This document shows, piece by piece, positions 14,838 to 18,063 of a DNA stretch of 64,000 nt. The notes below the pieces were generated by a model that was given only the letters and a program-made list of their open reading frames with translations, did not search any database and had not been told where the DNA came from. Made by a program: the position numbers and the translations under genes. The stretch lies in contig CALHCF010000003.1 of NCBI GenBank assembly GCA_937930635.1, forward strand, positions 330,272 through 394,271, in the 5' to 3' direction. Position 1 is the stretch's first letter; the number at the start of each line of letters is the position of its first letter. The DNA comes from an uncultured Rhizobiaceae group bacterium. GTDB taxonomy: Bacteria > Pseudomonadota > Alphaproteobacteria > Rhizobiales > Rhizobiaceae.

Positions 14838-15035
14838 ATGTTTGATGAAGCCGACAGCGGAAAAGAGCCGGTTAGTCACATCACTTTGGGGGCCGACCTT
14901 TCGACGCTTTCTCTTGGAGACATTGACGATCTCGTTGCCGCTCTGGAGGCCGAAATAGGTCGGTTAAAAGAAGAAAGAAACAAGAAATCCGGCAGCCTTA
15001 GCGAAGCCGAGAAATTCTTTAAAATTAGCAAATGA
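14838..15035 (+). CDS. DUF1192 family small protein
   Basis: LSTLSLGDIDDLVAALEAEIGRLKEERNKK...AEKFF. Confidence 0.8.
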   Translation: MFDEADSGKEPVSHITLGADLSTLSLGDIDDLVAALEAEIGRLKEERNKKSGSLSEAEKFFKISK

Positions 15036-15056
15036 TTTCGCTGCGTGTTAACCATT

Positions 15057-15071
15057 TTAATCATTTGTTAA
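15057..15071. promoter_or_regulatory. candidate CtrA binding site TTAA-N7-TTAA
   Basis: TTAATCATTTGTTAA. Confidence 0.55.
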
Positions 15072-15161
15072 GCTTTATAGACGTTAATGAAGTCTATCCA
15101 GTTCGCTGGATTTCGTTGATGTGATCTCCTTTCATTGATACGAGCCTCCCTGTTAACTCTT

Positions 15162-15187
15162 AAGAGCCGCTTGCGGCTCTTTTTTTT
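15162..15187 (+). terminator. Rho-independent terminator
   Basis: AAGAGCCGC-TT-GCGGCTCTT followed by T-tract. Confidence 0.9.
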
Positions 15188-15281
15188 GTCTTGATCACAG
15201 CCCAACATTGAATTTCGTGCTCGCTCAAGCCTTTACCCCCGATAGGTTCCTGATAATGTATCGGCGACAGGGTGGAGAAAA

Positions 15282-15836
15282 ATGACCAGTACCGAGCACA
15301 ATTCAGCCGACAACAAGGCCGCCATATCTTCACAGCCCGTCCGGCTTGCCCAGCATTTTGCTGGCTCAGAGAAGTTCGGCTCACTCTTCGCCTATGGAAT
15401 GGATTTGGTGGAGGAGACCGCAACCTTTCTGGATACGGAAGGGCGTGAGGCGGCCAAAACTCTTTCCAAAGCCGCCGCTGGCCTTTATGGCGCGGAGTCG
15501 ATGCGCCTCACCACCCGTCTGATGCAGCTTGCTTCCTGGTTGTTGCTGCAACGCGCAGTCGGCGAAGGAGAAATGACAGTCGAGCAAGCCATTTCCGAAA
15601 AGAAGAACGTCAAGTTGAACCAGCTGCGTTCACGCACCAACGGTGCAGGCTGGGACGAGCTTCCTCCGCGTTTTCTGGAATTGGTGGAGCGCTCGGTTTC
15701 CCTGCAACGCCGCATCCAGCGCCTTGATGATGAAATTTACGCCCGTCCGAAGGAAGAAGCCGAGATTGTCGAAAATCCGGTTGCCCTTCAGCGAACACTG
15801 CTGGAAACTGCGTTCGATCCCAAGTTTCGTAGCTAA
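15282..15836 (+). CDS. rcdA: DUF1465 / regulator of CtrA degradation (RcdA-like)
   Basis: FAYGMDLVEETATFLDTEGREAAKTLSKAAAGLYGAESMRLTTRLMQLASWLLLQRAV typical of DUF1465. Confidence 0.8.
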   Translation: MTSTEHNSADNKAAISSQPVRLAQHFAGSEKFGSLFAYGMDLVEETATFLDTEGREAAKTLSKAAAGLYGAESMRLTTRLMQLASWLLLQRAVGEGEMTVEQAISEKKNVKLNQLRSRTNGAGWDELPPRFLELVERSVSLQRRIQRLDDEIYARPKEEAEIVENPVALQRTLLETAFDPKFRS

Positions 15837-16047: not shown

Positions 16048-18063
16048 TCAGAAATTAGCGAGAGCGAGACGCGTAAACGCAACCCGGGTACGCGAATTGC
16101 CGGTAAAGGCATCGGCCCGCAACAAGGTGCGACCGCTATTAAAGCCTGCAGAGAAAACGGAGGCTGGCATTGGGCGACGCATACCCTGCTTGTAGCTTGG
16201 CGCTTTCAGGGTCGCCAACGCTCCAACGCGGGTGCTGCTTGAGACCGCCCAAACTTTGACTGAACGACCATCAAGGTCACCAAGCCGCAATTCCGGCTTG
16301 ATCGGTTCGCCATATCCCACGGCAACCATAGAGGGTTCACGGTCTGTCAGTTCGTTTGGCTTGGGAAGCGGAACCACAACCGGTTTCGTGGATTTGAGAA
16401 CTTCCTCAGCTCTCTCGACCACAGTCTCATCAATACGCCAGGCTGGCGCTGGCACGTTGCCAGGCACCTGCAGCGAGGCCTGAAGAACAGGTGGGGTCAC
16501 AACAGCAGCCGGCACGGCTTCAATCGGGTTACGCTTGGGTTGAAGGCGAGCAACAAACTCTTCCGTCGACTGTTGCGGGAACGTTGGACGGGCAACCGGT
16601 TTCGTTGGTTTCAACTGAGCTGATGCCACAACGGTTTCTTTTGCCTCAGCCAGAACCTCAACAGCCCGTTGCGAAGGCGTCAGGTTGGTTGAACTGGCCA
16701 AAGCCGTTCTGATGCGCGCGTTCAGGCGGGCAATCTCTTCTGACGTTTCCTTTGTAGCAGGCGGGGCCTGAGGAATCTCAACCCGGGGGCGCAGAATGCT
16801 GGTTCCCTCTTGTGGCAAAGCAAGCGCCACACGGGTATCACCGACCGGTTCCAGTGGCCGCCTGTCAATCTGTTGCGGCGTTTCATCGTTTTGAGCAATC
16901 TGCGTGGCAACCTGAGCAATCTGGGCCTGAGCAATCTGAGGCTCAGCAATCTGAGGTCTGCGTCGCGGAATTGTCACCCGCGAAGGCGTCAGATCAGACG
17001 GGTCTGCTGCAGCCAGTTGCAAGGCTTTCTCGCTATTCTTACGGGCGACTTCAGCTTCCTGCGCAAAGGGGTCCGGCCCCTTTGGTTTCTCCGCCACCAC
17101 AACAGCGGGAGCAGGAACTTCCTTCTTCTCAGGAGCTTCGATCTTCGGCTTTTCTTTCTTTACAGGAGCCTTTTTGACCACCTTTGGAGCAGCCTTTTTC
17201 GGCTTGGCAGTAACATTGCTCTCGTTCTCGTCGCCATCATCCCCGGATTTTCTGAAAATACGGGCCAGCAGCGTTTTCCTGACAGCCGAACGGCGGGAAC
17301 TGCCATCAGCATTGCGACCCCGTTTCAGGTTCGCCATTGCTGTCTTGTAACCCTTGAGCGGCTTGCCATTGGAAGGAACATGAATGGTTTTGCCACGCGG
17401 GAACACGCGCGCCAGCTGGCGGCGGCTCATCCGAGGCCAATGCCGCACCCGTCCCGTATCCATGTGCACAAATGAACCACGGTAAAAACCAACACCACCG
17501 CGATGAGCCTGAAGTCCAAGAGCACGAAGCTTTTTAACGCTCACATCCGGCATGAAGAAATCCAGCGCCTTGCCTCTAGTGTGCTGGCTGCTGCGTGCAA
17601 CACCGCGGCCCCGCCGCCGCAACATTTTGTTGGTGCGCGGAGAGCGGTATCCTGAAATCACGTGAATACGTTTGCGCGACCCACTTTTTTGGTAAACCTC
17701 CCAGACAAGATCCAGCAGCGCCGGATCCATCCGTGTCGGTTCCTTGCGCCGCCAGTCACGAAGAAAACGGTTGGCCTTGCGCAGGCCGCTTTTCACATAG
17801 CGACCGTTTTTCTTGAAGGTAATGTCTGCCTTTTCCTTGGTATGCGTAAAAAACATACGCAAGGTCCGGGTCTCGGCTTCGGCCTGGTTGAATGCGGCAG
17901 TGCCGGCGGAAAACAGGATCGCAAGAACACAAAGCAGCAACACACGCAAGCCGGTGCCGAAAACCGGTGCGACGGGATAAACCGTTTTCAAACCGCGCTG
18001 ATAAGCTGCCGACTGCATATTCAGGATCACGTCGCCTTTATACTCTGCGAAAAGCCAATACAT
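16048..18063 (-). CDS. DUF882 / YcbK-like M15-family peptidase with long low-complexity C-terminal region
   Basis: HVISGYRSPRTNKMLRRRGRGVARSSQHTRGKALDFFMPDV ... GSFVHMDTGRVRHW. Confidence 0.88.
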   Translation of the reverse strand: MYWLFAEYKGDVILNMQSAAYQRGLKTVYPVAPVFGTGLRVLLLCVLAILFSAGTAAFNQAEAETRTLRMFFTHTKEKADITFKKNGRYVKSGLRKANRFLRDWRRKEPTRMDPALLDLVWEVYQKSGSRKRIHVISGYRSPRTNKMLRRRGRGVARSSQHTRGKALDFFMPDVSVKKLRALGLQAHRGGVGFYRGSFVHMDTGRVRHWPRMSRRQLARVFPRGKTIHVPSNGKPLKGYKTAMANLKRGRNADGSSRRSAVRKTLLARIFRKSGDDGDENESNVTAKPKKAAPKVVKKAPVKKEKPKIEAPEKKEVPAPAVVVAEKPKGPDPFAQEAEVARKNSEKALQLAAADPSDLTPSRVTIPRRRPQIAEPQIAQAQIAQVATQIAQNDETPQQIDRRPLEPVGDTRVALALPQEGTSILRPRVEIPQAPPATKETSEEIARLNARIRTALASSTNLTPSQRAVEVLAEAKETVVASAQLKPTKPVARPTFPQQSTEEFVARLQPKRNPIEAVPAAVVTPPVLQASLQVPGNVPAPAWRIDETVVERAEEVLKSTKPVVVPLPKPNELTDREPSMVAVGYGEPIKPELRLGDLDGRSVKVWAVSSSTRVGALATLKAPSYKQGMRRPMPASVFSAGFNSGRTLLRADAFTGNSRTRVAFTRLALANF

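Follow-up and report, generated by a model that had tools for sequence, protein, structure and literature searches.

The region from 15095 to 15187 of the window, the 64,000-nucleotide stretch of DNA analyzed here, is almost certainly a small-RNA (sRNA) gene, to judge from its conservation among relatives. CtrA, the master cell-cycle regulator of the Alphaproteobacteria, very likely acts on this gene and probably does so as an activator. The reading that combines these elements, namely a stand-alone and CtrA-activated sRNA gene that is terminated before rcdA and whose product pairs in trans with ribosome-binding sites, carries a high probability in our judgment. The original prediction of a CtrA-controlled sRNA at this locus is still the best reading of the sequences, with three covarying helices and a CtrA box that is found at a fixed distance and is kept where rcdA lies elsewhere. 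Comparative sequence analysis establishes the gene as such and the structure of its RNA, and shows that both are conserved and that a CtrA box constantly accompanies them. The sRNA family itself is already known, as BjrC1505 in Rfam and as SmelC671 in S. meliloti, and is functionally unstudied.

The locus and the predicted RNA

The features of the locus are collected in Table 1. The upstream neighbor of the sRNA gene encodes a DUF1192 protein and the downstream neighbor, rcdA, scores 198.5 bits against the RcdA equivalog model (cutoff 170). The box, hairpin, two CU-rich patches and terminator named in the original prediction each lie where they had been placed, with the patches TCTCCTTTC and GCCTCCC at 15125-15133 and 15144-15150, respectively. 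The terminator also ends short of rcdA, as had been claimed, since the ATG of that gene (15282) is found 94 nt beyond 15187. The extent originally given, 15072-15187, does contain the sRNA, but its 5' part is promoter DNA and the likely transcript covers only about 15095-15187.

Table 1. Features of the sRNA locus and its neighbors (window coordinates)
Feature	Position	Strand	Basis or remark
DUF1192 protein gene, upstream neighbor, outside the sRNA	14838..15035	+	Pfam PF06698, 49.7 bits
CtrA box TTAA-N7-TTAA (box 1), TTAATCATTTGTTAA, putative sRNA promoter	15057..15071	+	Sole perfect match in the window
-10-like hexamer TTAATG	15084..15089	+	Tentative; TTTA[CT]T-like stretch in aligned homologues
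Small RNA, ~93 nt	~15095..15187	+	Predicted start +/-3 nt; R1 and BjrC1505 matches
Hairpin 1, ATCCAG-TTCG-CTGGAT	15096..15111	+	97.9% of cells paired; 4/6 pairs changed on both sides
Hairpin 2, two-tier, loop UCUCCUU at 15125-15131	15112..15144	+	Minimum-energy fold of 15095-15187
Core CCUCCCUGUUAACUCUU, mostly single-stranded	15145..15161	+	Near-invariant A1 columns; RFMSmelC671 motif
CUCCCUGU, near-invariant, anti-Shine-Dalgarno type	15146-15153	+	Inside the core
Intrinsic terminator AAGAGCCGC-UUGC-GCGGCUCUU plus U-run	15162..15187	+	98.9% of cells paired; 5/8 pairs changed on both sides
RcdA (DUF1465) gene, CtrA-protease adaptor, downstream neighbor	15282..15836	+	Pfam PF07323; NCBIfam NF051867

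At -25.0 kcal/mol, the fold predicted for 15095-15187 consists of hairpin 1, hairpin 2, the mostly open core and the terminator, the stem of which spans 15162-15181 and is followed by a T-run that reaches 15187. A long extended 5' hairpin, seen in the fold of 15082-15188 (z -3.1), was discarded because its outer arm falls upstream of the likely start. The position of this start comes from 79 homologues aligned on hairpin 1, which have a TTTA[CT]T-like stretch at -13 to -8, so that transcription would begin near the first base of the hairpin (15094-15097) and give a transcript of about 93 nt, in agreement with the 100 nt of SmelC671.

Within one genome, these elements alone are weak support for an sRNA gene. 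A single perfect TTAA-N7-TTAA in 64 kb compares with an expectation of 0.32 and is present in 28 of 100 shuffles, and terminator-like sites are no commoner in the window than in shuffled sequence. What leads us to accept the gene is conservation, since box, 5' stem, CUCCCUGU core and terminator have all been kept within the order and beyond it. As a separate observation on the neighborhood, the gene convergent with rcdA (16048-18063, minus strand) encodes a peptidase M15 or MepK-like protein, the C-terminal part of which is long and of low complexity; the protein scores 166.5 bits against a MepK model with a cutoff of 185.

Conservation and family membership

Homologues of the sRNA are found in nearly all of 101 relatives and also in other orders of the class. 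A DNA search of the 101 whole genomes recovers the 3' part (15144-15187) across most of the order, almost without exception a short distance upstream of rcdA, and the roughly 85 homologous loci that were read have one common architecture. Hairpin 1 takes the form UCCAG-loop-CUGGA, of which compensated variants, among them UUCAG/CUGAA and UCCGG/CCGGA, also occur; hairpin 2 is GAGUGG/CCACUC in many families; these are followed by an unpaired GACGCCUCCCUGUUAAC and then by a terminator, GAGCCGC/GCGGCUC, with its U-run. The stem of the originally predicted hairpin is therefore conserved, but its UUCG loop is incidental, with other tetraloops occurring in most relatives. The two CU-rich patches, described as anti-Shine-Dalgarno-like, have similarly divided fates: CUCCCUGU is near-invariant, whereas the first patch falls within the hairpin 2 loop and has CTCC in only 25 of 71 aligned relatives.

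A covariance search had been proposed as a check on the prediction, and all three helices are indeed found to covary among relatives. In an alignment of 71 rows (A1), which includes the window and excludes the promoter, 92.9% of cells are paired and 15 of the 20 pairs have changes on both sides, a result matched by none of 500 shuffles on any measure; partners slid out of register pair in 32-50% of cells. All six pairs of the hairpin 2 helix are changed on both sides, but only 80.2% of its cells are paired. A covariance model built on A1 (R1), and hence without the promoter, matches the window at 15094-15188 with 77.1 bits (E 3.7e-13), the window being one of the 71 rows on which the model was trained. 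R1 recovers further copies that were overlooked by simple searches and, when run on 385 genomes of the class, gives strong matches of 81 to 55 bits in families of other orders. The window RNA has the elements of this wider SmelC671/BjrC1505 family in the proper order (hairpin 1, hairpin 2, CUCCCUGU core and GC-rich terminator), and it shares with 88 of 102 homologues the location upstream of rcdA, here at 94 nt. Some genomes harbor more than one copy of the sRNA, as observed in G083 (L062 and L069), G310 and G477, and in the latter two the extra copies are closely spaced on one contig.

An Rfam search of the window region returns no family at its cutoff. A permissive search gives BjrC1505 (RF02356) at 33.5 bits (E 5.9e-5), with the model matched over its full length (1-140) to 15053-15186; this is the only match in the genome and falls below the curated cutoff of 50 bits. 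Since relatives score 126, 105, 91 and 90 bits, the window copy appears to be of the same family, though drifted, and its low score is due to changes in hairpin 2 and the 5' part. In the close relatives of the window, too, hairpin 2 is weak and the Rfam score low. The window RNA is therefore claimed only as a diverged homologue of BjrC1505, short of Rfam-grade membership. BjrC1505, an alphaproteobacterial sRNA first named in Bradyrhizobium, shares its CCUCCCUGUUA core and its terminator with the window RNA, and in the top-scoring relative (G094) it is located upstream of rcdA, as in the window. At E <= 0.1, RF02356 has no match in S. meliloti or in L100, which has the same core variant. The first positions of the model (about 1-30) align with the CtrA-box promoter as if this were RNA, and the family boundary has probably been set about 40 nt too early.

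The window RNA also very probably matches the SmelC671 family of S. meliloti. SmelC671 is a 100-nt transcript identified by deep sequencing (PMC2873474), and ReC71 of Rhizobium etli, a homologue of the family, is likewise a sequenced transcript. The family model RFMSmelC671 has CUCCCUGU in a long single-stranded domain between hairpins and a 3' terminator (PMC3927594), and both of these are found in the window RNA. Like the window RNA, SmelC671/Sm84 and ReC71 are about 100 nt in length and single copy, with CUCCCUGU single-stranded between variable hairpins and a terminator at the 3' end, and they are distributed across the Rhizobiales. The core differs slightly, being UUUUCUCCCUGUUUUACC in S. 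meliloti and GAGCCUCCCUGUUAACUC in the window; a pattern scan of named genomes finds the sister core UUUUCUCCCUGUUUUACC in Rhizobium, Sinorhizobium/Ensifer, Agrobacterium, Neorhizobium and Shinella. The homologue in S. meliloti 4H41 scores 63 bits with R1, lies about 195 nt upstream of rcdA and has a perfect CtrA box. It is situated between MmgR and 6S RNA, in an arrangement whose order and strands agree with those around SmelC671 in Rm1021. The spacings in the two strains are unequal (12.4 vs 14.2 kb and ~77 vs 60 kb), and we identify the 4H41 homologue as SmelC671 with a confidence that is high but falls short of certainty.

The CtrA box and its relation to rcdA

The box was scanned for at 12-45 nt upstream of hairpin 1, with dinucleotide shuffles as the control. 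Among 83 order-level loci, 80 have a box that matches at least 7 of the 8 half-site positions (51 perfect and 29 at 7/8), compared with 0.5 perfect and 5.5 at 7/8 in shuffles, and 64 of these 80 have it at a distance of 24-26 nt from hairpin 1. A box is also present in 17 of 18 class-wide R1 loci (8 perfect and 9 at 7/8; shuffles 0.2 and 1.4). The window has its TTAA-N7-TTAA at promoter distance, as in CtrA-regulated genes, 25 nt before hairpin 1, and box 1 is perfect in each of the 11 loci checked in its genus, where it precedes the hairpin by 22-31 nt. The seven letters of the spacer vary while the TTAA half-sites hold. The query of the first DNA search did include the box region; most relatives matched only from query position 105 onward, and because only the 3' part was matched there, the box is a fairly independent test in most relatives.

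The next gene found is rcdA, on the same strand, in 88 of the 102 loci, and this arrangement lends itself to an alternative in which the RNA is a regulated leader, or attenuator, of rcdA, with one transcript from the CtrA promoter and a terminator that decides whether reading continues into the gene. The genus of the window fits such a leader as well, since a scan of the full interval between terminator and rcdA finds no perfect box there. At the other 14 loci, however, no rcdA is found within roughly 0.9-1.5 kb downstream, yet RNA, terminator and box (perfect in 10, 7/8 in 4) are all kept. Because every one of these 14 loci keeps the box, it belongs to the RNA and travels with it. Within the core Rhizobiaceae, moreover, rcdA has a second perfect box of its own, located shortly after the terminator and before the gene in 68 of 68 loci. 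This second box, of the type TTAACC[CT]TT[CT]TTAA, occurs in 27 of 78 loci of the order set against 0.1 expected, and lies 28-34 nt after the terminator in L253, L185, L199, L214 and L240. The unlinked rcdA genes of G042 and G029 also have their own box, and no alternative anti-terminator fold was noticed among the folds computed. A leader is accordingly considered improbable. On account of the 14 loci, the second box and the unlinked rcdA genes, we infer two separate CtrA inputs, one near-universal for the RNA and one lineage-specific for rcdA, and the distribution of the second box suggests that CtrA control of rcdA was gained or lost in particular lineages. As rcdA in the window's genus is without a box of its own, read-through from the sRNA into rcdA is possible there.

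Other explanations place the RNA or the box in a different context. In one of them the region has no promoter of its own and serves the DUF1192 gene as its 3' UTR and terminator, a processed 3'-end fragment being the most it could yield. In the window about 60 nt do separate the end of the DUF1192 gene from hairpin 1, and such a gene is detected immediately ahead of the RNA in 37 of 102 loci, but most loci have no detected DUF1192 gene (the protein is short and can be missed) and still keep both RNA and box; furthermore, the fixed-distance box would have no role, and the S. meliloti homologue is classed as an independent trans-encoded sRNA (PMC2873474). We regard this explanation as very improbable. 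It is also conceivable, though unlikely, that the RNA is real but that CtrA represses it, or that the box serves the DNA in some other way, for instance by co-regulating a distal rcdA promoter. Among known genes, CtrA activates some and represses others. The box, however, is found 24-26 nt before the likely start, which fits the usual position for activation by CtrA, and it persists at loci that have no rcdA nearby. In S. meliloti, CtrA is bound at the rcdA promoter, yet rcdA mRNA is unaffected (PMC4433202), which can be taken to favor repression or another role of the box, and is also compatible with the sRNA as the target, without proving it. The ChIP peak at this promoter spans two candidate boxes and, because both are upstream of rcdA, cannot be assigned to either one; the notion that the peak must be that of the sRNA was dropped in view of the second box, which S. 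meliloti has before rcdA and the genus of the window does not. In Agrobacterium several start sites and a predicted CtrA site have been described for rcdA (PMC10469942), and the multiple starts are compatible with an sRNA promoter upstream. The report that gives promoter motifs lists no sigma-factor motif for SmelC671 (PMC7143759), as would be expected for an activator-dependent promoter.

Proposed action, related RNAs and targets

In the favored scheme of a stand-alone, CtrA-activated gene, CtrA~P would bind the box, which overlaps the -35 region, and would activate transcription from around 15094-15097, both the activation and the precise start being presumptive. The transcript would stop at the terminator before rcdA, and the RNA of about 93 nt would fold into two hairpins and the terminator stem, with CUCCCUGUU left exposed. 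The most likely role of this segment is base-pairing in trans with ribosome-binding sites (...AACAGGGAG...), in which Hfq may take part, such that a set of mRNAs would be turned down in the phase of the cell cycle in which CtrA is active. An exposed anti-Shine-Dalgarno motif followed by a U-tailed terminator is the usual build of base-pairing sRNAs such as AbcR (PMC3712013), and pairing in trans is suggested because the window RNA shares this build; by this analogy, the balance tips slightly toward action through anti-Shine-Dalgarno pairing.

The RNA is distinct from several other known sRNAs. The original prediction had suggested a comparison with EcpR1 (SmelC291), which is likewise a cell-cycle-linked sRNA of the Rhizobiales, and the answer is a clear no: EcpR1 is stress-induced, has a conserved UCCGCCGCAUCU loop and lies between divK-pleD and rpmG (PMC4414408), whereas the window locus is DUF1192/rcdA and the loop is absent. 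GspR (SmelC775) differs in both locus (SMc03844/SMc03845) and taxonomic spread, being restricted to the genus Sinorhizobium (PMC5928217). AbcR1/AbcR2 (alpha-r15) and MmgR (suhB, RF00519) share with the window RNA the anti-Shine-Dalgarno C/U motif and terminator in a single RNA of ~80-120 nt. In AbcR, however, UCCUCCC is exposed in a 5' loop (PMC3712013), whereas the motif of the window RNA lies between hairpin 2 and the terminator, and the RF00519 match of 22.1 bits is well below its cutoff of 41. CcnA of Caulobacter crescentus, a non-coding RNA that is presumed to be activated by CtrA and likewise carries a C-rich motif for pairing (PMC8959179), is encoded at the chromosomal origin and pairs via a CCCC loop; it is a different RNA at a different locus, and an RF02356 search of control genomes, Caulobacter vibrioides included, gave no match. 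In L160 (1503-1590), sub-cutoff Rfam matches are seen to the Rhodobacter sRNAs SorX (33.9 bits, cutoff 46.6) and SorY (29.4 bits, cutoff 111), reflecting either a distant relation or merely a common C/U motif plus terminator.

To our knowledge, few CtrA-linked sRNAs have been described. The literature searched, which was mostly open-access and did not extend to the original Bradyrhizobium report, holds no report of CtrA control of the BjrC1505/SmelC671 family. With a CtrA box retained in several orders, even at loci from which rcdA is absent, this single-copy RNA ranks as a strong candidate for a conserved output of CtrA at the RNA level. We give even odds to a broader reading, in which an ancient single sRNA, present in several alphaproteobacterial orders and driven by CtrA in nearly all of them, constitutes a general post-transcriptional arm of the CtrA cell-cycle circuit; in this reading the arm escaped notice because its promoter box was taken to be that of rcdA or was absorbed into the Rfam model. 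Caution is advisable in any case when a CtrA site or a distal start is located upstream of rcdA, as either may be that of the sRNA.

No conserved target of the sRNA emerged from the rcdA leader, from the extended complement or from scans of relatives for seeds before an ATG. The ribosome-binding site of rcdA was rejected as a conserved target, with ACAGGG upstream of the gene in 8 of 77 cases, and so was the 16-nt extended complement, the matches to which are mostly the sRNA loci themselves plus about 10 other places, close to chance by estimate. An AbcR-like function, in which the RNA represses genes for ABC/TRAP solute-binding proteins, would be compatible with the stand-alone gene and draws on the AACAGGGAGG-N3-9-ATG loci of 61 relatives; about 17 of the 68 that were read, by eye from translations, encode such proteins. 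The control seeds AAC[CGT]GGGAGG, however, give a share that was counted as equal (9/30 vs 17/68), and in a hand count in the same genomes the A variant of the seed (~28) is no commoner than the C (45), T (33) and G (23) variants. Since the controls are equal and not rarer, the link appears to reflect strong Shine-Dalgarno sites in general; solute-binding-protein genes were set aside as specific targets, and such a function is unlikely. Judging by the 61 relatives, a strong Shine-Dalgarno sequence, AACNGGGAGG before an ATG, is frequent upstream of ABC/TRAP solute-binding-protein genes in this order, whatever the letter N. Finally, the homologue in G005 (L043/L064), which is of the window's own genus, keeps a perfect CtrA box and the terminator but has the core CCTCTTCTCCTGAATTTC rather than CCTCCCTGTTAAC, a change that may possibly alter target specificity.
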